Below, piece after piece: positions 18,365-31,121 of a stretch of 64,000 nt of DNA. A program made the position numbers and the translations under genes. The DNA lies in assembly GCF_023238205.1 (NCBI RefSeq), contig NZ_CP096659.1:1939626-2003625 (forward strand), in the 5' to 3' direction. The notes under the pieces are model-generated. The model did not search any database. It was not told the DNA's origin and saw only the letters and a list, made by a program, of their open reading frames with translations. The stretch is from Halorussus limi (GTDB taxonomy: Archaea > Halobacteriota > Halobacteria > Halobacteriales > Haladaptataceae). Each line of letters begins with the position of its first letter. The stretch's first letter is position 1.

Positions 18365-19435
18365 ATGGACTCGTCCGAACTCGTCGAGACGCTGGAACGG
18401 TACGGTCTCTCGCCGTATCAGGCGGCGGCGTACGTCACCGTGGTCGAGCGAGGGACGATGGCCGCCCAAGAGGTCGCCGACGCCAGTTCCGTTCCGCAAC
18501 CGCGCGTGTACGACATCCTCCGAGACTTGGAGTCGGAAGGGTTCGTCACGACCTACGAACAGGACAAACTCTACGTGCAGGCGTTGGACCCCGACGAGGC
18601 CCTCGAAACCGTCCGGGAGCGCGCCGCGGAACTCGAAGCCGCCGCCGAGGAGATTACCGACCGGTGGCAACAGCCGGCGGTCAAGGAACACACCGTGAGC
18701 CTGGTCCAGCGCGGTCGGACCGTCTTCGAGAAGGCCCGCGACGAACTCGACCGGGCGGCCGACCACGCCCAACTCGTCTGCAAGACCGACCACCTCGAAT
18801 CGCTCCGGCCGACGCTGACGGCCGCCCACGAGCGCGACGTGTTCGTGGACGTGACGCTGTACGACGTGGCCGACGGCGAGTCGCTCGCGGAGTACGACTT
18901 CTCGGAACTCTGCACCCACGCCCGCGTCCTCCGGCGGCCGCTCCGGTCGGACCCCTTCGGCGCACTCGTGGACCGCGAGCGCGCCTGCTACTCGTGGTAC
19001 CCCGCGACCGACGACGAGTACGGCATCTACATCGACGACAGCGCCCACGAGAACATGGTGTGGAACTACATGATGCACCTCCGGTTCGCGGCCGAGGAGC
19101 ACTACACCGCCACGCCCTACGAACCGCCGCTCCGGTTCGGCGCGCTCCGTGACTGTCTGCACGTCGTGGAACCGCTCGTGCGCGACGGGCGAACTCTCAC
19201 CGCCGAAATCGAGGGCACGTGGGTCGAGAGCGGTCGGCGCTGTGAGCTTTCGGGTACGATTCTGACCATCGACTATCCGGGCTTCGAGGAGGGCGAGTCG
19301 GCCACGCCCCTCCAGATGTTCACCGACGCGCGCCTCACCATCGACACTGGCGACGAGACCTACACCGTCGGCGGGTTCGACGCCATCATCGAGGACGTAG
19401 AGGCGACGCGGGTCGTAATTACCGACATCGAGTGA
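18365..19435 (+). CDS. trmB: TrmB-family sugar-responsive transcription regulator
   Basis: The 356-residue protein starts with a winged helix (ETLERYGLSPYQAAAY at 8-23; recognition segment VPQPRVYDILRDLESEG). A coiled region (ALETVRERAAELEAAAEEI) links to a C-terminal sugar-binding-like domain ending in beta strands (TVGGFDAIIEDVEATRVVI). In Halobacterium salinarum the TrmB protein is a glucose-responsive regulator that controls gluconeogenesis, glycolysis and cofactor genes. Length and domain order fit that protein closely. A TACT-N7-GAGTA operator match lies 25 kb away at 43983. Confidence 0.9.
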   Translation: MDSSELVETLERYGLSPYQAAAYVTVVERGTMAAQEVADASSVPQPRVYDILRDLESEGFVTTYEQDKLYVQALDPDEALETVRERAAELEAAAEEITDRWQQPAVKEHTVSLVQRGRTVFEKARDELDRAADHAQLVCKTDHLESLRPTLTAAHERDVFVDVTLYDVADGESLAEYDFSELCTHARVLRRPLRSDPFGALVDRERACYSWYPATDDEYGIYIDDSAHENMVWNYMMHLRFAAEEHYTATPYEPPLRFGALRDCLHVVEPLVRDGRTLTAEIEGTWVESGRRCELSGTILTIDYPGFEEGESATPLQMFTDARLTIDTGDETYTVGGFDAIIEDVEATRVVITDIE

Positions 19436-19443
19436 GTGGGCCG

Positions 19444-20007
19444 TCACGTCGCGTCTTCGACTGCGGGCACGACCAGTGTCAGCTTCATCTCCGACTCGTC
19501 GGTCGTCACGCGCACGTCGAACGCGACCGCCAGCACGTGCGTCTCGCCCGCCCGCTCTTGCACGACGACGCCCCGATGGGCCTCACAGTTGCCGAACCGT
19601 CGGTTCGGCCCGCCGGGGCAGTTCGACTGTCGCCACGCCTCGGCCGCAGTCTGGTTGTAGCCGACCTGATACACCGTTCCCTCCTCGACCCGCGAGGAAC
19701 GAAGCGCGTCCAGCCTCGGCTGTAGCGCCGAACGAACCGCGGTCACGGCCGCAGTTCGCTCGCTCCACGCGAACTCGCCGGTCGCGCCGGCCGCGGCGTC
19801 GTGGACCGCTCGCGAGAGCAGGCGCTCGGCGTTCCGGTCGGGGGCGTCGTACTCCGAGGTGGCGGTCACGTCGGCGTGATAGCCCAACTGGAGGTACGCG
19901 ACGACGACCGGTGCGAGCGCCACGGCGACCAGCGCGGCCGCCGCGAGGACGAGTTGGGCGCGCTCTCGGGTCGGCGGTTCGTCCGCCCCCGCGTCGGTCC
20001 CGCTCAC
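19444..20007 (-). CDS. pilin-like membrane-anchored protein 5 of the pilus cluster
   Basis: The 187-residue protein starts at GTG 20007 in a GTGA overlap with its neighbour; a GTG at 20022 would overlap it by 19 bases. After a charged N-terminus ending RAQLVLAAAALVAVAL there is a single hydrophobic helix, resembling archaeal pilin-like subunits whose helix follows a charged cleavage region. The rest is extracellular beta-rich sequence with a Cys pair (SNCPGG and GNCEAH). It matches a haloarchaeal pilus-cluster family I believe to be DUF7261. It ends the five-gene pilin-like run. Confidence 0.75.
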   Translation of the reverse strand: MSGTDAGADEPPTRERAQLVLAAAALVAVALAPVVVAYLQLGYHADVTATSEYDAPDRNAERLLSRAVHDAAAGATGEFAWSERTAAVTAVRSALQPRLDALRSSRVEEGTVYQVGYNQTAAEAWRQSNCPGGPNRRFGNCEAHRGVVVQERAGETHVLAVAFDVRVTTDESEMKLTLVVPAVEDAT

Positions 20008-20429
20008 GCGTACCACACCCAAATCGTCACGTCGCCGAACTGGGTCGTCACGCTCGCGGACCCGACCGCCACGCCCGCCGGTTTCCGGAAGCCGACCGCG
20101 CCGTGGGGCGTCCGGAGGCGAAACATGAGGTTGTCGGGGAGGATGCGCGCGACCCGCCGCCTGAGCGCCGCGCGTTCGCGCTCGAAGGCCTCCGAGGAGC
20201 GCACGACCTCCGAGAGTCGGGTCGCGCCGCCGTGTCGCGGCGGTTCGCCGGCGAGGACCGTCGCGGCGTCCTCGGCGTAGAGGTCGAGTTGCGCGGCCCG
20301 GTCGTCCGGCGGGGAGACGCCGAGCGCGAACCCCATCGCCACCGCGAGAATCAGCACGACCCCGACGCCCGCCTCCACTACCGACAGCGAGAGCTGTCCT
20401 CTGTCCGCCGTGCGATTCTCCTCAGCCAT
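20004..20429 (-). CDS. pilin-like membrane-anchored protein 4
   Basis: This 141-residue protein has a short charged head (MAEENRTADRGQLSLS) and one hydrophobic helix (VVEAGVGVVLILAVAMGF), then an extracellular domain. The Arg-Gly-Gln just before the helix is typical of haloarchaeal pseudopilin-like families (probably DUF7262). It overlaps both neighbours by a few bases, so the cluster is one transcript. Role in the pilus, minor subunit or assembly factor, is unknown. Confidence 0.75.
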   Translation of the reverse strand: MAEENRTADRGQLSLSVVEAGVGVVLILAVAMGFALGVSPPDDRAAQLDLYAEDAATVLAGEPPRHGGATRLSEVVRSSEAFERERAALRRRVARILPDNLMFRLRTPHGAVGFRKPAGVAVGSASVTTQFGDVTIWVWYA

Positions 20430-21099
20430 CGACGGTCACCGCCAGCATCGCCTTGCTCGTCTCGGCGGGATAGTAGGTCAGTTCGACGCTCCCGGAGGGG
20501 AGCGGGCCGTCGGTCTCGAAGGTCAGCGCGGTGGTTTCGAACCGCGAGAGTCGAACCTCGAACCGGCCTTCGAGACCGGACTCGTTTCGGAGAACGATAT
20601 TCTCGTTTGCTTTCACAACTTTTACCTTGCTCCCTTCCGGCGGAGACAGTCCGATTTCGACCCGCGGCGAACGCCGAGGGAGCGTCACGGTCGGGTCGCT
20701 CGCCGAGAGGTCCGGCGTCAGCGACGCCGCGGTTCGGTTCTCGACCAGCACGATTCGCCGGACGGTCGTCCCGCCGGTCGGGTCGCCCGCGGCCGCGAGC
20801 GTCCGGTCGCCGAGTCGGACTTCCACGTCGTAGCCGTCGGTCACGGCGAACTGTTCCTGGAGGCGGGTAGCGTTCAGCCCCGTCAGCGCGTCGTCTTCGA
20901 GGACGTTCGTGCGCGTCGTGACCGGCGAGTCGGGCGCGACGAGTCGCTCCGAGAGCGCGACCGCGACCCGCCGCTGGTCGGCGTCGCGTTCGGCGCTGAG
21001 ATACGCCCGGTCGGCCAACCCGAGACTCACGACCGTCACCGAGGTCACGACGAGGAGCGCGACCGCCAGTGCAGGCATGTTCATCTGGCCGCGGTTCAT
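20422..21099 (-). CDS. pilin-like membrane-anchored protein 3
   Basis: The protein has 225 residues. MNRGQMNMPALAVALLVV at the start combines the RGQ head with a hydrophobic helix (residues 8-28), followed by a long beta-strand-rich extracellular domain with two ARTF-like and KANEN turns. Probably the DUF7263 family. It overlaps proteins 2 and 4 of the run by 4 and 8 bases. No catalytic motif is seen. Confidence 0.73.
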   Translation of the reverse strand: MNRGQMNMPALAVALLVVTSVTVVSLGLADRAYLSAERDADQRRVAVALSERLVAPDSPVTTRTNVLEDDALTGLNATRLQEQFAVTDGYDVEVRLGDRTLAAAGDPTGGTTVRRIVLVENRTAASLTPDLSASDPTVTLPRRSPRVEIGLSPPEGSKVKVVKANENIVLRNESGLEGRFEVRLSRFETTALTFETDGPLPSGSVELTYYPAETSKAMLAVTVDG

Positions 21100-21584
21100 G
21101 CCCGGCCTCCCTCGCGTCCTCGCCCGTCGCCCGATTCGAGACGGACCGCGAGTCCGCCCGCGTCGCCGCTTCGGACCACGACGAAGGCGGGGTCGCGACT
21201 CGACCAGTTGCCCGACACCGACGCGACCGTCTCGGGGAGCGCGAGCGCGACCCGGCCGCCGACCCGGTCGGCGGGGTGGTCGAGGACCAGCGTCCGGTTC
21301 TCGGCCCGGACCGCGTAGGCCCGGCCGCGGACGGTCCGGGGGAGCGACACCGCGGCCCGGACCCGGACCGCGCGAGCGTCGGTCGGCACCGCCTGCTGGA
21401 CGCGCTCGGCCGACTGGGCCAGCACGCGCTCGCCGACCTCCGCTCCCGCCGCGGTCCGGTACTCGGGGACGACGCCGCCGTAGAGCGTCGCCGACAGGAG
21501 GCCGACGTAGAGGACGACGATACCGGCCTCCAGCGCCTTGCCGACGACCGGCGAGGCGGCGCGAGCGTCACTGATTTCAGGCAT
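21096..21584 (-). CDS. pilin-like membrane-anchored protein 2
   Basis: The 162-residue protein begins MPEISDARAASPVVGKALEAG and continues into a hydrophobic helix (IVVLYVGLLSATLYGGVV). The AxSPVVG element resembles the prepilin-like head of archaeal pilins. The extracellular part has strand motifs and a Gly/Arg-rich tail. Probably the DUF7266 family. Coupled to both neighbours by short overlaps. Confidence 0.75.
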   Translation of the reverse strand: MPEISDARAASPVVGKALEAGIVVLYVGLLSATLYGGVVPEYRTAAGAEVGERVLAQSAERVQQAVPTDARAVRVRAAVSLPRTVRGRAYAVRAENRTLVLDHPADRVGGRVALALPETVASVSGNWSSRDPAFVVVRSGDAGGLAVRLESGDGRGREGGRA

Positions 21585-22329
21585 TTCGGACCTCCAGTTC
21601 CATCTCGTGGACCACGAGGTAGGCCACGCGCTCGCCGGGGTAGGCGGCCACGACGCTCCGCGGGCCGTCGCCGTCGAAGTCGCGGGTCGTGACGCTGGCG
21701 TTCCGGCGCTCGAAGTGCCGCCGCCACGCGCCTGGGGGCGCGGTCTCGACCGCGACGCGGTAGGTGCCGTTGCCGAGAGCGGTCCGCCGGTGAGAGACCG
21801 TCGTTCGGACCACGACCGACGAACCGCCGGACCCCGAGACCGCGACCGACCCGTTCAGCGCGGGCGCGCCGACGACGAGGACGCCGCGGCCGTCTCCGTC
21901 GTCGCCGTTCCGCGACGCGGTTATCGGCGGCGGCGTCCGGACGTTGGCGTTGTTCGGCGGGCCGCGGACGACGGCCCCCGCGAGGAACGCGACTCGGCGC
22001 TCGCCCGCGGTGAACACCAGCGCGTCGGTCCGGACGCGCCGGACCACGCCCGACTCGTTCAAGACGCGGAGGTCGCGCTCGACGATCCGCAACTCGCCGT
22101 CGGTGAACGAGACTCGACCGCGGTGGACGCCGGTCGCTTCCACCGGGTCGAGCGCCGCGTCGAAGTCGGCGGCCACGCGGGCCGAGTCGGCCGCCGCGGC
22201 GTTCTCCTCGACGATAGCGCCGATGCCCGCGGTCAGCGACCCGAGCGCGACGACGACCACGCCGAGCAGCACGGCGACGCCGACGACGTTGGACTGCGCC
22301 CGGTCGGAGACCGGTGTCGGTCCGTTCAT
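21577..22329 (-). CDS. pilin-like membrane-anchored protein 1
   Basis: A 250-residue protein starts at ATG 22329, overlapping the TadC-like stop in an ATGA junction. SDRAQSNVVGVAVLLGVVVV is a good archaeal class III-like prepilin head with the hydrophobic helix at about 13-35. The rest is a beta-rich extracellular domain with a Gly/Asp loop (SRNGDDGDGRG) and several potential N-glycosylation sites (for example NASV). Probably the DUF7289 family; it is the largest of the run and the best candidate major subunit. Confidence 0.78.
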   Translation of the reverse strand: MNGPTPVSDRAQSNVVGVAVLLGVVVVALGSLTAGIGAIVEENAAAADSARVAADFDAALDPVEATGVHRGRVSFTDGELRIVERDLRVLNESGVVRRVRTDALVFTAGERRVAFLAGAVVRGPPNNANVRTPPPITASRNGDDGDGRGVLVVGAPALNGSVAVSGSGGSSVVVRTTVSHRRTALGNGTYRVAVETAPPGAWRRHFERRNASVTTRDFDGDGPRSVVAAYPGERVAYLVVHEMELEVRNA

Positions 22330-24290
22330 ATCATCCCGACCCCCGCGAACACGAAGTACGCGACGCCGACCAACGCGCCCGAGTGGAGCAACGCCTCGTA
22401 GCGCCCGCGACTCGCGTACCCGGCGAACCACCCGCAGGCGAGCATCGTCGCCTGCGTCACGACGTAGAAGCGCCGCCTGTCGCGGGCCGGTTGCACGGCG
22501 TCGGCGTCGAGCGCGATGCCCGCGTCGGCGGTCGAGATGGACGAGAGTTGCGCGAAGCTATCGAGGACGTAGACGTTGACCGCGACCATGATGCCGACGA
22601 CCAGCAGGGCCGTGGTCCACCCGACCGCGACGTAGACGAGCATGTTCGAGCGAAGCGCCTTGCGCTCGTGGTACAACCGCCCGATTTCGACCTGCAGGGT
22701 CTCGAAGACCGCCTCGGCGTCCCCGCCGGCGTCGAGCGCGCCCGTGACGAGTCCGATGGTCTGGTCGGCCAGCGGGGTGCCGACTCGGTCCACGAACCGC
22801 GAGAGCGCGGCCGCCTGCAGGTCGCCCCCGCGCGTGGTCAGGTTCGCGTTGAACGCGAGGTCGGACACGTCGCCGTCGAGCGCGCCGAGGTCCACGTCGC
22901 GGGCGACTCGCTCTACCGCCTCCGAGAACGGCCGACCCAGGCTGACGTGGCCCGAGACGGCGTGGACGAAGTCCTTGATTTCGCGGTCCTTCGCGTCGTC
23001 CAGATTCGCCCGCCTGAGCGCGACCAGACCCACCGGGAGGGCGGCCGCGACGTAACCGAGCAACGCGACGTTGACCGGCGAGTAGCCGAGCGTCCCAAGC
23101 GCGGCGGCGACCCCGACAGCGAGCGGTGTGAACGCCACCAGCGCGCTCGCGGGATTCCGGAGCGCGCTGGCGAGGACGGGGAGTGCGCCGTCCGGACGCT
23201 CGTAGTCCCGGCCCGACTGGTCGGGCGGGCGGAGCGCGGCGACCACCGCGGCGGCGACGCCGCCGACGACGAGGATGAACCCCGCGCTCCCGTAGACGAG
23301 GAGCGCGCGGACCGTGACCCGTCCGAACGGGGTCGCGGTCTCGGCGCTCAGTCCGGGCGCGAGGACGCTCATCACGGTCACGACGATGATGAGCAGGGCC
23401 GGAAGCACGAGCAGCACGACGAACATCTCCGCGATGAGTTCGAGGAAGTCGCTGGCCTGCTCGCGACTTCTGTCCTGTCGGTTCGACAACATTCGACTCT
23501 CCATCCGGAGGTACTGGGCGAGCGCGTCCGGCCCCTGCTCCGCGTGTTCGCGGAACTTCACGAGAAACGGAGCGAGCGCGTCCCGGGAGGGCGTGTCTCG
23601 GGCCACCACGCGCAGACCCTCGCCGAGACTGCCGGTCAGCGTCGCCTTGTTCAGCGCCTTCCGGAACGCCACCGCGGTCTCGCCGTAAGCTTCCTCGCGG
23701 TCGGCGACCTTCCGGAGCATCGCCGCGCCGTCCTCGTTGCCCGACGAGAGCGCGTGGAGGTACCGGACCGCACCGGGGAGCGTGCGTTCGATGTTCGACC
23801 GCCGGGCGCTCGCGGTCCATTCGAGGTAGCGCCCGCCGAGCGCGACGGTCGCGCGCTTGCCGGCGAGACCGACTCCGAGTCCGGCCCCGACCGCCGCGGC
23901 GGTCCGCGAGACGGCCGGGACGCCGACGGCTTCGAGACCGGGGACTCCCCGTCGGAGGAAGTCCGCGGCGGCCGCCAGCGTGGCGTCGGGGAGCGCGACT
24001 ACGACGACGAACGTCCACGCAGTCAGTAGCGCGAGGGCCAGCCACGACAGGCCGTAGGTCCGCGCGAGGTAGACGTCGAAACTCGCGGTCACGCCGGTCG
24101 CGCGGTAGTGCTTGCGGTCGGCGTCGTGGCGCGCCCGGTCGGCGTGCCGGGAGAACAGCGCGTAGAGCGCCCGGTCGAGGACCGAGAGCGTTGGGATGCC
24201 GGTCGTTTCGGTCGTTTGCACCCCGTCGGTAGTTGCGACTCGCTCGCTCTCGTCGGCGGTCGGGTGTCCTCCCTCACCGGCCGCGTTCAC
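22326..24290 (-). CDS. TadC/FlaJ-type pilus assembly membrane protein
   Basis: The 654-residue protein contains two type II secretion F-like domains (about residues 150-320 and 430-600), each followed by transmembrane helices. The SSGNEDGAAMLRKVADREEAYG and DAGGDAEAVFETLQVEIG segments mark the two cytoplasmic bundles. It is the inner-membrane platform on which the pilus ATPase acts. The start is GTG 24290, preceded by GGAGG. In related clusters it sits beside its ATPase; here 4.6 kb with two glucanase genes separates them, and this gene has its own promoter. Confidence 0.92.
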   Translation of the reverse strand: MNAAGEGGHPTADESERVATTDGVQTTETTGIPTLSVLDRALYALFSRHADRARHDADRKHYRATGVTASFDVYLARTYGLSWLALALLTAWTFVVVVALPDATLAAAADFLRRGVPGLEAVGVPAVSRTAAAVGAGLGVGLAGKRATVALGGRYLEWTASARRSNIERTLPGAVRYLHALSSGNEDGAAMLRKVADREEAYGETAVAFRKALNKATLTGSLGEGLRVVARDTPSRDALAPFLVKFREHAEQGPDALAQYLRMESRMLSNRQDRSREQASDFLELIAEMFVVLLVLPALLIIVVTVMSVLAPGLSAETATPFGRVTVRALLVYGSAGFILVVGGVAAAVVAALRPPDQSGRDYERPDGALPVLASALRNPASALVAFTPLAVGVAAALGTLGYSPVNVALLGYVAAALPVGLVALRRANLDDAKDREIKDFVHAVSGHVSLGRPFSEAVERVARDVDLGALDGDVSDLAFNANLTTRGGDLQAAALSRFVDRVGTPLADQTIGLVTGALDAGGDAEAVFETLQVEIGRLYHERKALRSNMLVYVAVGWTTALLVVGIMVAVNVYVLDSFAQLSSISTADAGIALDADAVQPARDRRRFYVVTQATMLACGWFAGYASRGRYEALLHSGALVGVAYFVFAGVGMI

Positions 24291-24348
24291 CGTGTCGCCC
24301 TCCTCGAATCGCGTTCATGCCCGTTCCTCTATTCTTTCTGGTATTTAA
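24274..24348 (-). promoter_or_regulatory. tadC-like promoter and 14-codon upstream ORF
   Basis: GTATTTAA (24341-24348, minus strand TTAAATAC) lies exactly 23 bases before an ATG at 24318. That ATG opens a 14-codon ORF ending TGA at 24274-24276, out of frame with and overlapping the GTG start of the membrane protein. The pilus ATPase gene has the same box at the same distance from its ATG (31144-31151 and 31121). Either the short ORF is a coupled leader, or this is a remnant start. Confidence 0.55.
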
Positions 24349-24379
24349 GAGCTAGTAATATCTGATTCTCGGGACGAAC

Positions 24380-24401
24380 TCCGGCGGAAGGTAACGCCGG
24401 A
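24380..24401 (-). terminator. inverted repeat after the GH81 gene
   Basis: TCCGGCG and CGCCGGA form perfect seven-base arms around eight bases, about 160 bases beyond the GH81 stop and ahead of the tadC-like promoter. No T tract follows, so a terminator role is only a possibility. Confidence 0.25.
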
Positions 24402-24560
24402 ACTACACGGTCACACTGGCGAGGACGGGGCGGAAGGGTCGTCCGGGGACATCGGCCGGGGAGTCGGACGGGTGGACAGTACTGACGGAAGTAGCGGTAA
24501 TGTTTTCGGACGTGGTGATTCAGTGGGTGCCGCGTTGCGGACGGAGATGGTGCGAGCGGC

Positions 24561-27557
24561 CTAGTAGGTGAGGCTGAACCACCCCGTATCGCTCGCGGTG
24601 CCGTCGTGCTGGTAGGTGAAGTAGTACTCGATGCGGTCGCCCGAGGAGAAGTCGCCGACGACGTAGTCCGGACTCGTTTCGAGCGTGTGAGTGTCGCCGC
24701 TCGGGTTGTTCATCCGGTAGTTGTACTGCGTGCCGCCGTTGACCGTGTAGTGGACGTCCACCCAGTCCGAACCGACGTTCGAGACGAACTCGAACGAGAG
24801 TTCGTCGGTGGCGGTGTCGCCGTCGGACCCGTCGATTCGGGTGACGCGCTGGCTGAAGTCGCCGCCGCCCGACGCGTCGGTGGTGACGCCGACCGCGTTC
24901 GACGCGCTCGATTCGTTGCCCGCGCCGTCCACGGCCGTCACGGAGAACTCGTACGTCGTCCCGCTGGCGAGGCCCGAGACGGTCGTCGAGGTGGTGCCCG
25001 CCGGGACCTGTTGGCTCCGCGTCTCGTCCACGTACACGGCGTAGTGGTCCACTCCGGACCCGCCGCTGTCGCTCGCGGCGTCCCACGCGAGGTCCACCGA
25101 CGAGTCGGTGTGTCCCGGCGACCGGAGGTTCGACGGCGCCGTCGGCGGCGTCTCGTCGGACGACCCGCCACCGTCGCCGCCTGTACTCGACTCCATCGAG
25201 TTGGCCGGGACGCTGAGTGCGGTTCCGTCCGAGAAGGTCACCGTAATCGAGGAGTTCTCGCCGTTGTAGGCGACGTAGGTCGTCTCGCTGCCGTCGTCGA
25301 AGGCGTAGGCGAGCGGGTAGTCCGCCGTCACCGAGGGGTCGGGGTTCCCCATCGCGTCGATATTGTAAATCCAGTGGTAGGTGTGGGCTTTCGTCTCACC
25401 GGCCTCCGGAGTGTAACTTCCTTTCGCGGACTGGAACATGCTCTTGGCGTCGCTCACGTCCGAGAACGCCCGGTAGTTCCACATGATGTCCTGCCAGTAG
25501 TCCCAGTCGCCGCCGTTGTCGTCGTTGGCTACCGCTTCGCTGTAGTTGCGTTCGGCCAGTTGGGAGTCCCAGCCGAGGTACAGCGAGTGACCGCCGAACG
25601 GCAGGTAGTTGATGCCGTGAATCGCCTCGGCGTCCGCCGAGAACCACGTCGAGTAGGAGTACTTGATGCCCCAGACGATGCCCGCGGTGTCGTGGCCCCA
25701 CTCGTCGGGATGGTTCTGGTCGTCCACGTCGAACCAGTACTCCATGGCCGAACACACCTCGTGAGTATAGAGGTACGCCGCCCAGTTCAGCATCTCGTCG
25801 TTCCCCGTGAAGACCGCCCACTGGAGCATCGCCGCGTAGGCGTGGATGGCCTCAGACGACGACTCTTGGTTGTTGCCTCCAGCGAACTCCGCGGTCCCGG
25901 CGGCCCACGAGTGGCCGCCGTACGGACTGAAGTTCCGCAGGAAGGGGAACGAGTCGGCGGGGCTGTCGGCGGGTTCCTGTGCGTTGGCCCTGTTCGGTCG
26001 CTCCCAGTTCGCGTAGTCGCGGACGAGCAGGTCGACCATCCCGCCCCAGTTGCCGTCGTCGCCCCACGACTCGTCGGTGCGCGCGAGTTCGGCGGCGGCC
26101 CGGACGAAGTAGCCGTAGTGGAAGTGGTGGTCGTTGAGGTCGCCCGCCGCGCCGTACGAGTCGGGGTAGCCGATGAGTGTCCCCCACTGGTCGTTGTAGT
26201 AGAAGAGGTTCTGGCTCTCGCCGCCGTCGGCGGTCAGCCAGTTCTCCAGTTCCGTCCGGATGGCGTCGTGCAGGGCGTCGCGCTTCCCGGCGTTCCCGAC
26301 CTGGTCGGCGATGGGTGCCGCCTCCGACATTCGGCCGAAGTCCTTGCCGGTCCAGTAGGTGCCGCTCCCCTGTCCGTTGTCGTACCCCGCCGTCACGTCG
26401 CCGACGTAGGACGCCAGTTCCGAGTCGTCGTAGCTCCCTCGGTCGGGCAGGAACGGAAGCACGCCCCGGAAGGGATGGGTCGTCGTGAACGACGCTCCGC
26501 TCACCGTCTCCATCGTCCCCCGCGGACACTCGTAGGTGTACCCGAGTAGGGACTCGTCGGTGTACTTGTGCTGGTGGGGGTACAGCCCCGTAATCGTCGC
26601 GTCGCCGCCGACCTGACTCTCGGGCTTGTTGGTCGTGTTGAACGAGTAGGTGGTGCGGACCTCGCCGGCGTCCCGGTCGTAGGTCGGACTGACGCGAGTC
26701 GCATCGCCCGCGCCGGTGTCGGTGATGAAGTTGTACGCGTACCGCTCGAACGTGTCGAGCGTGGACGACGTACCGTCGGGGAGGATTGCAATCGTCAGGT
26801 ATCCGCCGGAGAGACCGTTGGTCAGCGTGGCCGAACCGACGCCCGACCAGTCGTCGCCCGACGGCGCGAACAGTCCGTAGTGGTTGCCCTCGTGGGTCAG
26901 TCCGAGGACGTTCCCGCGGTCCGCCCAGACGGTCGGCGCGGTCCGGAATCCGAGTTCGGCGCCGCCGCCCTCGAACTCGCAGAAGACGTAGGGCGACCCC
27001 TTCGTCAGCGACGCGGTGAGGGTCGTCGCCGTTCCGCTCCCCCACTTCAGCGTAACCGACCAGTCGCTGTGCCCATCGACTCGCGTATCCGAGAACGTGG
27101 TCGCGGTGTGACCCAGCGTGAAGTCGCGCTGGACGTTCATCTTCGCGTCCTCGTTGGGGTAGTTCCACGTCGTCGGATGGCCGACCTTCAGACCGGTGTC
27201 GTTGGCCAGCGCGAACCCGGGGTGGAAGAAGAGGTTCTCCGAGTACTGGGTCGCGAGCGCCGACGACCACCAGTCGTTGGACGGAAGCGGCGCGCCGACG
27301 TTCCCGGTCGTGTATCGGGTCGCCGGCGGTTCGCCCTCGCCGGATGGCTTTTCGTGTGTGTAGCTCCCGTTGCCGACGCTGTGGATGCCGCTCGACGCCA
27401 AGGTCGGTTCCGGGACCGACGCGAGGCCCGCCAAGCCAGCGACGCCGAGCGCCTCGAAGTAGGTACGCCGCGACAGCGACAGCGCGTCGTTCGATTCGTG
27501 CGATTCGTCTCGCTCGCTCTGCCGGTCGCTATCGGCTTCCTCTGGGCTTTCGTTCAT
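24561..27557 (-). CDS. secreted GH81 endo-beta-1,3-glucanase with FN3 and C-terminal glucan-binding domain
   Basis: The 998-residue protein carries a twin-arginine signal (LSRRTYFEALG at 28-38). Residues 85-790 are a GH81 catalytic unit: DLNDHHFHYGYF (473-484) holds the presumed acid Asp476, and NNQESSSEA (562-570) the presumed base Glu565/Glu569. An FN3 domain (about 802-893, TAPSNLRSPGHTDSSVDLAW) and a roughly 95-residue beta-sandwich at 903-998 follow; the latter resembles CBM56, a beta-1,3-glucan binder. It should cut laminarin, curdlan or fungal/algal wall glucan outside the cell. It sits with a GH16 gene inside a pilus cluster. Confidence 0.93.
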   Translation of the reverse strand: MNESPEEADSDRQSERDESHESNDALSLSRRTYFEALGVAGLAGLASVPEPTLASSGIHSVGNGSYTHEKPSGEGEPPATRYTTGNVGAPLPSNDWWSSALATQYSENLFFHPGFALANDTGLKVGHPTTWNYPNEDAKMNVQRDFTLGHTATTFSDTRVDGHSDWSVTLKWGSGTATTLTASLTKGSPYVFCEFEGGGAELGFRTAPTVWADRGNVLGLTHEGNHYGLFAPSGDDWSGVGSATLTNGLSGGYLTIAILPDGTSSTLDTFERYAYNFITDTGAGDATRVSPTYDRDAGEVRTTYSFNTTNKPESQVGGDATITGLYPHQHKYTDESLLGYTYECPRGTMETVSGASFTTTHPFRGVLPFLPDRGSYDDSELASYVGDVTAGYDNGQGSGTYWTGKDFGRMSEAAPIADQVGNAGKRDALHDAIRTELENWLTADGGESQNLFYYNDQWGTLIGYPDSYGAAGDLNDHHFHYGYFVRAAAELARTDESWGDDGNWGGMVDLLVRDYANWERPNRANAQEPADSPADSFPFLRNFSPYGGHSWAAGTAEFAGGNNQESSSEAIHAYAAMLQWAVFTGNDEMLNWAAYLYTHEVCSAMEYWFDVDDQNHPDEWGHDTAGIVWGIKYSYSTWFSADAEAIHGINYLPFGGHSLYLGWDSQLAERNYSEAVANDDNGGDWDYWQDIMWNYRAFSDVSDAKSMFQSAKGSYTPEAGETKAHTYHWIYNIDAMGNPDPSVTADYPLAYAFDDGSETTYVAYNGENSSITVTFSDGTALSVPANSMESSTGGDGGGSSDETPPTAPSNLRSPGHTDSSVDLAWDAASDSGGSGVDHYAVYVDETRSQQVPAGTTSTTVSGLASGTTYEFSVTAVDGAGNESSASNAVGVTTDASGGGDFSQRVTRIDGSDGDTATDELSFEFVSNVGSDWVDVHYTVNGGTQYNYRMNNPSGDTHTLETSPDYVVGDFSSGDRIEYYFTYQHDGTASDTGWFSLTY

Positions 27558-27591
27558 GGTAACGAACTGCAGGAATATTTAGAACACGGAA

Positions 27592-27609
27592 TAGAATAAA
27601 TTTATTCTA
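27592..27609. promoter_or_regulatory. 18-base perfect palindrome ahead of GH81
   Basis: TAGAATAAATTTATTCTA is perfectly symmetric and centred 43 bases before the GH81 ATG. It could contain the TATA box itself, with a second A/T-rich element (TTCTAAATATTCC, minus strand 27572-27584) nearer the start. Symmetry of this length suggests a dimeric regulator site. Confidence 0.55.
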
Positions 27610-27750
27610 GGTTTAGTGAATTTTTCTACGGGCAGAGTGCGTCTTCGGCAGTTGGACAGACACGGAGCATCGAGACGCGAGACGGTCCCCCGATGACGCC
27701 GGTCGGACGTTATCGAAGGAGTCAGTACACAAGGAGACCCGTGCGGTCCG

Positions 27751-28680
27751 CTACACCCAGTCGTAGACTCTGACGTAATCGACCTCCATGCGCTGGGGGA
27801 ACTGCGTACTGGCGTCGGGGTTGCCGGGGAGGTTGCCGCCGACCGCGACGTTGAGGAGGAAGAAGAACGGTCCGTCGTCGAAGACCCACTCGTTGCCGGC
27901 GTCCTCCACCTCGTAGAGAGTGACGGTGAAGTAGTGCTGGCCGTCCACGAAGAACTTGACCGCGTCGGGGTACCACGTCAGTTGGAAGGTGTGGTAGGAG
28001 TCGGCGAACGACCCGTTGTTGTAGGTTCCCCCGATGCTGTTCCCGCCGGAGTAGCCGGGACCGTGGACGGTGCCGTGGACGGTGTCGGTGTCGTCGCCGG
28101 TGAGTTCCATGATGTCTATCTCGCCGCAGTCCGGCCACCCGACGGAGTCGATGTCGGAACCGAGCGCCCAGATTGCGGGCCAGAGTCCCTGACCCTCCGG
28201 CAGGCGAGCGCGCACGTCGACGCGGCCGTACTGCTTGTCGTACCCGCCTTGGGTCTTCATGCGGGCCGAGGTGTAGTCGTAGGAACCGTACTGGTCCGAA
28301 ACCTGCTCCTCGCGGGCCTCGATGACGAGGTGATTGTTCTCGACCCACGCGTTCTCGCGCTGGTAGTACTGGAGTTCGTTGTTGCCCCATCCGGGGATGC
28401 CCTGGGCGTGGCCGTTGCCGGTCTCGAAACTCCAGACCGACTCGTCGATGTACCCTAAGTCGAACTCGTCGCTCCAACTCAGCGACCACTGGTTGCCGTC
28501 GAACGCCGCGGTGGGGACTCGTTGGGAACCCGCGTCCACACCGTCTGTCGCCGCGCTTGCAGTCGAAGCGGCGAACGTGCCGCCGAGCGTCGCCGCCGCG
28601 GTGCTTAGGAAACCTCTGCGGCGGAGTCGTTTGCCGGTCGATTCGTCTCCCGTCCGTTCGAGCGAACTGTCGTCGGTCAT
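27751..28680 (-). CDS. secreted GH16 beta-1,3(4)-glucanase (laminarinase-like)
   Basis: The protein has 309 residues from ATG 28680; a GTG 42 bases earlier is less likely. A twin-arginine signal (LRRRGFLSTAAATLGG at 19-34) and an ASA cleavage region precede a single GH16 domain. Catalytic GEIDIMELTG (186-195) supplies nucleophile Glu187, Asp189 and acid/base Glu192. GNNELQYYQREN and the late MEVDYVRVYDW are standard for bacterial and archaeal laminarinases. No binding module is attached. Tandem with GH81 it suggests degradation of beta-1,3-glucan to small oligomers. Confidence 0.94.
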   Translation of the reverse strand: MTDDSSLERTGDESTGKRLRRRGFLSTAAATLGGTFAASTASAATDGVDAGSQRVPTAAFDGNQWSLSWSDEFDLGYIDESVWSFETGNGHAQGIPGWGNNELQYYQRENAWVENNHLVIEAREEQVSDQYGSYDYTSARMKTQGGYDKQYGRVDVRARLPEGQGLWPAIWALGSDIDSVGWPDCGEIDIMELTGDDTDTVHGTVHGPGYSGGNSIGGTYNNGSFADSYHTFQLTWYPDAVKFFVDGQHYFTVTLYEVEDAGNEWVFDDGPFFFLLNVAVGGNLPGNPDASTQFPQRMEVDYVRVYDWV

Positions 28681-28775
28681 GGTTGTCACCTCGCGTCGGT
28701 CGTCGCCGGGCGCTTCCCGCACGATACTCGGAGAGACGCCGAATCGGACCGACGCAGTTTATTTTATTTTTTGGA

Positions 28776-28805
28776 GATATAAAATTAATTACTAGGAAAG
28801 TAATT
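28776..28805 (-). promoter_or_regulatory. A/T-rich upstream region of GH16 with inverted repeat
   Basis: GATATAAAA (28776-28784, read TTTTATATC on the minus strand) is a strong TATA-like box about 95 bases ahead of the ATG. Next to it AATTACT (28787-28793) and AGTAATT (28799-28805) form perfect seven-base arms around five bases. The half-sites resemble TrmB-type halves (TACT...AGTA) but the spacing is shorter. Confidence 0.45.
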
Positions 28806-28898
28806 GTTTAATTTGGTGGGATGTTCGCGTCGCCGTAACTCGATGGCGCGAGCGACGGCCCGGGTCTCGTCGGCCGGCAGTCGGTCGAACCGGACGGT

Positions 28899-31121
28899 TC
28901 AGGCCACTTCCCGTTTCACCCGCTCGACGGTCGCGGCCTCGTCGTTGCGCAGGTCCGCGAGGAACGCGAACAACTCCTCGAAGTCGTCCATGCCCTCACG
29001 GGCCATGTACTGGACGTACCGATGTTTGCGGTGGAACTCGGCCTCGACTTCTTCGACCGGCCGGTCGGTTCGCTCGGCCAGTCTGTCGAGGAATCGGAAC
29101 TGACGCGCGTCGCCGTCCTCACCCGACATCGCGTCGCCCGCCAGATGGAACTCGCCGTCGGTGTCGCGCCACGCGACCGTATTCCAGTAGACCGTGGTCC
29201 CCTCTTTCTCTATCGCGCCGCAGCGCGCTCCGCGGGTGTCGAGGTCCGCGAACTCCGACTCGGTGAGCAGTTCCACCACCTCGCCGACGTAGCGCTCGCC
29301 GTCCACGCGTCGGGGGAAGACCACGAGGTCGAGTTCCCGGAGCAGGTAGGGCGGGAGTCCCTGCTCTATGACGCGGTTCACCAACTTCTCCACGTCCTCG
29401 GCGTGCGTGGTGCCGATGATGCCGTGGCCGGTGTTGAGACTCTCCGCGAACGTCTGGAAACTCGCGGGCGTGTTTATCTCCGCGATGACCTCTACGTCCG
29501 GATTCAGGTAATTGCACTCGGTCATCAGGTCGGCCATCGAGACGCGCTTGTAGTCGCTCTCGTGGTCCCGCGTGGTGAGCGAGACGCCCGTCTCGTGGGG
29601 CAGGCGGACCTCCCGAGAGCCCTCGTCGATGGAGATGGGCCGGTCGCGGTAAGGGATGAACGGCATGTGAGAGTTCATCAGCGTCGTCTTCCCCGTGCCG
29701 GTCGGCCCCGAAAAGAGGACGACGCCTTGGTGTTCGTAGGCCTGCCAGAGCAGCGTCACGATTTCGGTCGAGAGGCTGTCGGAGTCGAGCAAATCGACGG
29801 GCGTCATCGCCTCGGGCGCCTGCTTCCGGATGGAGATGTGAGGGCCGTCCTCGCTGATGACTCCGAGCGCCACCGCCGCCCGTATCGTGACCTCCTCGGG
29901 GACGCCCTCGGGTTGGAGGTTGACCTTCGCGCTCGGGTTCGAGGCGTTGAGTTCGGTGCCGTCGGACGCGGCCATCTGCGTGACGACGTTCGCGAACGTC
30001 TCCTCGTCCTCGAAGGTGAGGTTGGTCGGGGCGCGCTCGCCGTGGCCGATTTCGCGGCCCCGCGGCACGACTTTGATGCGCTCGCCGACCCGGTTCGCCT
30101 CGATGTCTTCCAGCAGGTCGTCCCGAATCGGCACGGTCAACTTGCCGTGACCCACGAAGTCCCGCATCACGTAGTAGACCAAATCGGAGAGCCTGTCGGT
30201 CGAAAACCGGTGGTTGACGGGCGGAACCGCGAGGTCGTACTCCGCCAAGGCGGTCCGGACCCGGTACCGTGCGGCGTCGAGCCACGCTCTGGTGTTGCGC
30301 GCGGTGAGTCGCCGCGAGAGGAAGGTTCGGGCGCGCTCGCGGACGAACCCCGCGCGGTCCTCGACCACGCCGTCGACGTTGGTCTCCCAAATTCGGTCCT
30401 TGCACTCTCGAATCAACTCCTCGTCGCCCGGCAGGAGGTCGGGTTCCAGCACGGCGTACTTCGTCGTGAACGAGTCGTTGGCCAGCAGGTGTTCGCGGTA
30501 GACGACGACTGGGACCTGAAACTCCCGGAACCCGACGGTGTGAGTCTCGACTCGCTCGCTGGCGAACCGCTCCAGAAACCGGGCGTCGGCCGGGCGGTCG
30601 GTGTCGGCGGGCGCGTAGTCGTCGGTGTGGACGACCAGTCGCTCGCCCGCGGTGTCGGCCACCTCGATGCCCTCGTCCAGCGCCAGCGGGGTGAGTTCCC
30701 CGAGACACCGCAGGTCCCTGAGCGCGCGGTACTCGACGCGCCGCCGGGCCTCGGGCGGCAGGTCGGTCAGGCGGTCCACGATGCGCCGGTACTTCGGGTC
30801 GAACCCGGCGGCCATCCGCTCTCGGGCGCCCTCGCGGGTCAGCGGCCGGGCGAGGTTCGCGTCGGCGAAGTGGTCAGCCACGGCGTCGAGCGCGTCGAGG
30901 CCCGCGGGCGAGAGCGACGGCTCTCGGACGCGATAATCGAATCCTGCGTCAGTTTCGGCGATCGTAGCGACCACGCCGGGGTGGAGTTCGTACTGGTCGC
31001 GTACCTCCGGCGCGTACCACGCTTCGGGGTCGTCGGGCGGTTTCGGCGGCGGAATCTGCGGCGAGACTTCGCTCGCCTCGCCGCCTGCCTCCCCGGCGTT
31101 CGCCCGCGCGGTCTCGGTCAT
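28899..31121 (-). CDS. type II/IV secretion (pilus) ATPase, PilB/TadA/FlaI family
   Basis: The 740-residue hexameric secretion ATPase has Walker A GPTGTGKTT (472-480), Walker B region VEVIAEINTP (543-552), and a histidine box GIIGTTHAED (567-576). A 200-residue N-terminal part is specific to the haloarchaeal family. It hydrolyses ATP to drive subunit extraction and filament assembly via the TadC-like protein. Promoter GTATTTAA (31144-31151, minus TTAAATAC) lies 23 bases before the ATG. Its partner membrane gene is 4.6 kb downstream beyond the two glucanase genes. Confidence 0.94.
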   Translation of the reverse strand: MTETARANAGEAGGEASEVSPQIPPPKPPDDPEAWYAPEVRDQYELHPGVVATIAETDAGFDYRVREPSLSPAGLDALDAVADHFADANLARPLTREGARERMAAGFDPKYRRIVDRLTDLPPEARRRVEYRALRDLRCLGELTPLALDEGIEVADTAGERLVVHTDDYAPADTDRPADARFLERFASERVETHTVGFREFQVPVVVYREHLLANDSFTTKYAVLEPDLLPGDEELIRECKDRIWETNVDGVVEDRAGFVRERARTFLSRRLTARNTRAWLDAARYRVRTALAEYDLAVPPVNHRFSTDRLSDLVYYVMRDFVGHGKLTVPIRDDLLEDIEANRVGERIKVVPRGREIGHGERAPTNLTFEDEETFANVVTQMAASDGTELNASNPSAKVNLQPEGVPEEVTIRAAVALGVISEDGPHISIRKQAPEAMTPVDLLDSDSLSTEIVTLLWQAYEHQGVVLFSGPTGTGKTTLMNSHMPFIPYRDRPISIDEGSREVRLPHETGVSLTTRDHESDYKRVSMADLMTECNYLNPDVEVIAEINTPASFQTFAESLNTGHGIIGTTHAEDVEKLVNRVIEQGLPPYLLRELDLVVFPRRVDGERYVGEVVELLTESEFADLDTRGARCGAIEKEGTTVYWNTVAWRDTDGEFHLAGDAMSGEDGDARQFRFLDRLAERTDRPVEEVEAEFHRKHRYVQYMAREGMDDFEELFAFLADLRNDEAATVERVKREVA

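Follow-up and report, generated by a model that had tools for sequence, protein, structure and literature searches.

The locus considered here raises the question of why two genes predicted to encode beta-1,3-glucanases should lie between the ATPase gene and the membrane-platform gene of an archaeal pilus operon. The window, by which we mean the whole 64,000-nucleotide stretch of Halorussus limi DNA that was analysed (contig NZ_CP096659.1, positions 1,939,626 to 2,003,625), comes from a genome of 4.6 Mb designated G000 and carries on its minus strand, in this order, genes for a pilus/secretion ATPase, a glycoside hydrolase of family 16 (GH16), a glycoside hydrolase of family 81 (GH81) and a TadC-like protein (tadC), followed by five pilin-like genes. 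The ATPase and tadC genes are thus 4.6 kb apart, with the two glucanase genes between them. The gene order and coordinates given in the original prediction, which was made from the letters alone, hold, and the ATPase, GH16, GH81 and TadC-like products all have Pfam matches. That prediction offered two explanations, a horizontally acquired glucan-degrading cassette or adhesion and glucan attack being functionally coupled. The arrangement is unusual but its explanation is of an ordinary kind, a cargo hotspot within a pilus operon: the ATPase–tadC junction in the Haladaptataceae is probably a site at which gene cargo is gained and exchanged, the GH16–GH81 pair being one such cargo.

We compared the junction in 155 haloarchaeal genomes of the order, 66 of which have both genes on one strand and one contig, and in 28 genomes of the family Haladaptataceae representing three genera, among them the window's own genus, Halorussus, and a second, Haladaptatus (relatives are designated G001 etc. 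and fetched loci by L-numbers). Outside the family, the gap between the two genes, taken as the match-to-match distance, was at most 588 nt in 47 of 50 genomes, and in the other three (G046, G143 and G082) the ATPase or TadC match is broken at the gap side, with approximately 8 kb splitting the ATPase gene in G082. The pilB1 and pilC1 genes of H. volcanii overlap, according to PMC6491452, in contrast to the 4.6 kb with two glucanase genes in G000, and the original view that these genes are usually adjacent is borne out. An ATPase orthologue was found in 22 of the 28 family genomes and TadC within the fetched stretch in 21 of those; for G014 no TadC match was found in the fetched stretch or genome-wide at 1e-70. 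The gap exceeds our threshold of 700 nt in 10 of the 21 (G000, G012, G026, G005, G013, G015, G021, G022, G011 and G002), where the filled junctions hold 1.3–14 kb, compared with 2 of 100 when the operon's other five junctions are counted in the family (Fisher P=1.5e-7, with relatives counted as independent), and the ATPase and tadC genes overlap or nearly so in six (G001, G006, G008, G010, G017 and G018). On the pilus-gene tree, the cargo state of the junction changed at least eight times. Uninterrupted pairs are common among the relatives and the glucanases are patchy, not part of a lineage-wide order; an insertion of the glucanases relative to the usual pair, as originally suspected, is supported by these comparisons.

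The glucanases appear to be one of many unrelated cargoes, because the same junction holds different content in relatives. GH16 and GH81 occur there together, in an order identical in both genera, in Halorussus G000, G012 and G026 (the last with a CAAX-protease-like gene in addition) and in Haladaptatus G005. G013 has GH81 without GH16, in the company of 2-oxoacid dehydrogenase genes, an NAD-kinase-like gene, GH97, an acetyltransferase and cysteine-rich twin-arginine (Tat) proteins. The remaining filled junctions contain an acetyltransferase and a hydrolase (G015), asparagine-synthase-like, VWA and two CAAX-protease-like genes (G021), a lanthipeptide-synthetase-like gene with a cysteine-rich peptide (G022), small membrane proteins (G011), and MFS and adenylate kinase genes (G002). 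Only a 90-residue open reading frame (ORF) lies in the junction of G019, and those of G020 and G024 are cargo-free. Among the genomes listed, the one nearest to G000 by rpoB is G014, which has neither glucanase, and the GH16 genes of G006, G008 and G009 and the GH81 genes of G008 and G009 are sited away from the pilus locus. The features of the window locus are collected in Table 1.

Table 1. Features of the pilus operon and glucanase genes in the window
Feature	Coordinates	Strand	Evidence
Type IV pilus/secretion ATPase (PilB/TadA-like), left hotspot flank	28899-31121	-	PF00437, 70 bits
GH16 promoter region, AT-rich	28681-28898	-	Palindrome TTACTAGGAAAGTAA at 28789-28803 (TACT-N5-AGTA)
GH16 predicted endo-beta-1,3-glucanase (laminarinase), twin-arginine signal	27751-28680	-	PF00722, 77.8 bits
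GH81 promoter region, AT-rich	27558-27750	-	Palindrome AGAATAAATTTATTCT
GH81 predicted beta-1,3-glucanase, fn3 and CBM56, twin-arginine signal	24561-27557	-	PF17652, 156.9 bits
tadC promoter region	24291-24560	-	TATA-like TTAAATA at ~24341-24347; homologous block in 11 Halorussus genomes
TadC/PilC-like pilus membrane platform, right hotspot flank	22326-24290	-	PF00482, 63.2 bits
Five pilin-like genes (DUF7289, 7266, 7263, 7262, 7261), end of pilus operon	19444-22431	-	Pfam

A mobile element integrating site-specifically at the 5' end of tadC or the 3' end of the ATPase gene could also place foreign genes here. The G022 gap, which holds an additional, diverged fragment of the TadC N terminus, speaks for this, as do the NrS-1-polymerase-like and TrwB-like genes at the junction of G014, where there is no tadC match. 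We consider it the least probable of the alternatives: the ORF list and Pfam matches gave no integrase or transposase in the window gap, only the two glucanase genes, the sole direct repeat listed as linking the ends of that gap, among direct and inverted repeats, is 23 nt at 74%, which is chance level, and the cargo varies from genome to genome. The element-like genes of G014, one with an NrS-1-polymerase HBD domain, lie beside its ATPase gene (L048, 1–14846). The LanM-like protein of G022 (L055, 4751–8881) has DUF4135 and LANC_like domains, and small cysteine-rich Tat peptides are found in the G022, G019 and G013 junctions (L052, 14680–14952; L047, 13207–13791 and 15200–15493); together they possibly represent a peptide-modification locus. 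In G024, 1.24 kb of 39% GC replaces or interrupts the 3' end of tadC (L056, 11756–12994).

The history of the two glucanase genes was followed using identity at 4-fold sites, corrected for codon bias, and by phylogeny. The GH81 gene of G005 has an identity of 0.45–0.52 with the four Halorussus copies, as against inter-genus maxima of 0.24 for the ATPase (98 pairs), 0.23 for TadC (91), 0.25 for DUF7263 (84) and 0.32 for rpoB (98); the inter-genus means are 0.37 for GH81, 0.21 for GH16 and 0.08–0.14 for the pilus genes and rpoB. Because this identity is far above that of the pilus genes and rpoB, the GH81 gene was exchanged across the genus boundary after the genera split, staying at the junction. 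GH81 copies outside the gap are somewhat raised against Halorussus too (0.26–0.33 among the pairs listed). In a tree of 38 GH81 sequences the haloarchaeal proteins form one clade apart from bacteria (100/100), within which the five gap copies of the two genera fall together (98/95), two non-gap Haladaptatus copies being next to them; in a tree of 11 sequences this group was not recovered, the fork between G013, the two non-gap copies and the remaining four being unresolved. When five pilus proteins are used for the tree, G000 falls with G014, G019 and G024 (100/100), none of which has glucanases at the site. Patristic distances for GH81 and for the pilus proteins are 0.175 and 0.727 for G000–G005, 0.071 and 0.241 for G000–G012, 0.220 and 0.231 for G000–G013, and 0.266 and 0.216 for G009–G008.

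A number of results weigh against a hotspot supplied by lateral exchange. For GH16, the G005 gene has identities of only 0.11–0.21 with Halorussus, with no clear inter-genus excess, and joins its own genus in the tree (98/98). Within Halorussus, the GH81 identity of G000 and G012 (0.66) is not far above that of rpoB (0.55), and approximately unbiased (AU) tests of GH81 were weak or borderline (0.06 and 0.042). Sliding identity along the ends of the ATPase and TadC genes showed no local rise and no exchange tract, so that recombination through the flanks is something we infer; the intergenic ends of the flanks mostly fail to align. Cargo-free junctions in which the two genes are separated could equally be scars of lost cargo and not precursors, and GH81 next to this pilus locus in another haloarchaeal family (G078 and G049) is an unexplained remainder. 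Since GH16 lacks an inter-genus excess and groups by genus, some of the cassette may be ancient and vertically inherited, and one could suppose that both genes occupied the junction before the genera split and were lost or moved in most lineages afterwards. The shared gene order fits this supposition, as does the mean inter-genus identity of GH16, nearer than that of GH81 to the pilus genes and rpoB. We nonetheless regard it as unlikely, as GH81 is far too similar between the genera for vertical descent, the GH16 copies of three genomes are sited elsewhere, and an ancestral presence needs more losses than the minimum number of changes on the pilus tree (GH81 in the gap, four; the GH16–GH81 pair, three). 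The GH16 gene of G005, on the same identities, was not recently exchanged between the genera; the two genes differ in history and so did not enter the other genus together as a single recent unit. The idea of a horizontally acquired cassette thus survives in its insertion, its patchy distribution and the lateral movement of GH81 between two genera, and fails as regards a single unit.

The alternative first proposed, functional coupling, holds that the pilus binds glucan-bearing surfaces or places the enzymes, and that selection retains the glucanases within the operon. The occurrence of the same pair at the same junction in two genera is in its favour, as is the second family, where the orthologous pilus ATPase gene has upstream of it a GH81 gene from a different lineage, accompanied by a divergent TrmB gene, at approximately 1 kb in G078 (L087, 5007–12381) and at 8 kb in G049 (L088, 5217–19893). 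The mixture of cargoes, mostly unrelated to glucan, is the main argument against coupling, and copies of both genes are found off the pilus locus. In addition, twin-arginine motifs, in line with the Tat secretion named in the original prediction, are readable in both translations (RRTYFEAL... and RRRGFLST...), and because both glucanases carry them the pilus would not be needed for export. The glucanase genes also have promoters of their own, and a CTAG-centred AT-rich element (TTACTTTCCTAGTAA in G000), found 112–131 nt before the GH16 start in all seven family GH16 promoters, is kept in G006, G008 and G009, where the gene sits elsewhere; nothing shown, therefore, ties the glucanases to pilus function, and we judge coupling very unlikely. 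If true, it would amount to an archaeal adhesion-and-digestion module. A broader version, in which the pilus and whatever cargo occupies the junction form an adhesion-plus-exoproduct module for attachment to glucan-bearing surfaces (algae, fungi) or to rivals, with the swappable cargo (glucanases, GH97, lanthipeptide-like enzymes) as the matching food tool or weapon, would explain GH81 beside the same pilus locus in two families; it is, in our estimation, more doubtful still.

The A/T-rich glucanase promoters that had been described as unlike their surroundings are real, though the promoters of the pilus genes differ from them only in degree: the lowest GC over 50 nt is 0.16 before GH16, 0.22 before GH81, 0.36 before tadC and 0.40 before the ATPase gene. 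Sugar-responsive control of the glucanases is a lead only. The CTAG-centred GH16 element resembles TrmB-type sites, which are TACT-N7-8-GAGTA in H. salinarum and TACT-N3-AGTA in P. furiosus, but with another spacing; TACT-N5-AGTA, a pattern picked after inspection of the promoters and spaced unlike either, precedes GH16 in G000 and GH81 in G012. With up to one mismatch this palindrome, again as picked after inspection, occurs in 6 of 14 glucanase promoters (resampled mean 0.56, maximum 4), and CTAG in 10 of the 14 (resampled mean 5.0, maximum 10), which is not decisive; the GH81 promoters of G008, G009, G013 and G026 are without it. Of 18 other haloarchaeal GH81 loci, 11 have a TrmB homologue (E up to 1e-10) in the flanks that were fetched, a count without a matched control. 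The window also has a TrmB-family regulator gene (18365–19435) at the pilus operon's far end; G024 carries its orthologue in that position (90%), and G019 a fragment of it. Control by this TrmB as the reason for the location of the glucanases was rejected, because G024 keeps the regulator in place and has no glucanases at the site.

The two enzymes are predicted members of their families with intact catalytic motifs, both exceeding the curated Pfam cut-offs (22 bits for PF00722 and 25.6 bits for PF17652). The best solved relative of GH16 is the laminarinase 3azx (342 bits), with whose equivalent motif EIDIME at residues 187–192 aligns; we take E-x-D-x-x-E to be the GH16 catalytic motif. An in-frame GTG at 28722 is a possible longer start. 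For GH81, the best solved relatives are 6fop (590 bits) and BH0236 (546 bits), the motifs NDHHFH and NNQESSSE align with BH0236, and D476, E565 and E569 lie in conserved motifs and are invariant across 16 haloarchaeal copies, the catalytic residues of BH0236 being presumably D466 and E542; fn3 and CBM56 domains stand at the end of the protein. Frameshifts in the ATPase and GH81 genes of G026 (L057) and in the GH81 and GH16 genes of G008 (L072 and L073) reflect decay or sequencing errors. Among the pilus proteins, the ATPase matches NF058587 and TIGR03819 under the cut-off, and the first pilin-like gene, DUF7289, has the archaellin/pilin N-terminal domain TIGR02537.

What would make this junction permissive is plausibly that tadC has a promoter and leader of its own. 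All 11 Halorussus genomes with a separated pair (G000, G011, G012, G013, G015, G019, G020, G021, G022, G024 and G026) have a TATA-like box and a homologous leader before tadC, with the pattern ATGAACGC...GGAGG...GTG in most of them, and the leader persists in the cargo-free junctions of G020 and G024 and in G019. Haladaptatus G002, G004, G005 and G009 have different TATA-like blocks. A short leader ORF in the window (24274–24318) is out of frame with tadC and overlaps its start, an overlap that is possible translational coupling. Our current working hypothesis is that tadC first gained its promoter and leader and so no longer depended on the ATPase gene for its transcription and translation; new DNA arriving between the two genes would from then on have been harmless, and the conserved flanking pilus genes would permit cargo to be swapped by homologous recombination. 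The glucanases would each be transcribed from a promoter of their own, probably in response to sugars, leave the cell by the Tat pathway and break down beta-1,3-glucans (laminarin, curdlan, algal or fungal walls) as a food source; no part for the pilus is known.

Gene order is here a poor guide to function, as a permissive site accounts for what looks like an adhesion-hydrolase operon, and the position of the glucanases informs on gene trade more than on the pilus. The locus is a tractable case for seeing how an operon can open to cargo, here through a promoter and leader that belong to the downstream gene, and how two archaeal genera can exchange the gene of a secreted enzyme with its site preserved.

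Compared with known systems, the locus has the ATPase, the TadC-like gene and several small pilin genes in the same order as haloarchaeal PilB–PilC loci (PMC6491452 and PMC4858521). The predicted glucanases share family profile and catalytic motifs with 3azx, 6fop and BH0236, and the CBM56 of GH81 is matched to a BH0236-related domain; they differ in being acidic (D+E 0.14–0.16, K+R 0.045) and in the Tat motif. A Pyrococcus furiosus enzyme is a GH16 laminarinase, and the authors of PMC9726719 attribute curdlan and laminarin use by curdlan-growing haloarchaea to GH81. Three GH3 matches are present in the G000 genome. The curdlan-growing organisms have GH81 alongside GH3; they belong to other genera, and the accessible part of PMC9726719 gives no pilus context. 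In one open-access library, no published account of an ATPase–tadC hotspot was found. Gene-cargo (integration) hotspots between conserved core genes are known for genomic islands in haloarchaea and bacteria. The window site resembles them in its conserved flanks, variable and unrelated content, patchy spread and lateral exchange, and differs from them in having no tRNA, integrase or repeats, in lying inside an operon whose flanking products cooperate, and in the promoter and leader that tadC has kept.

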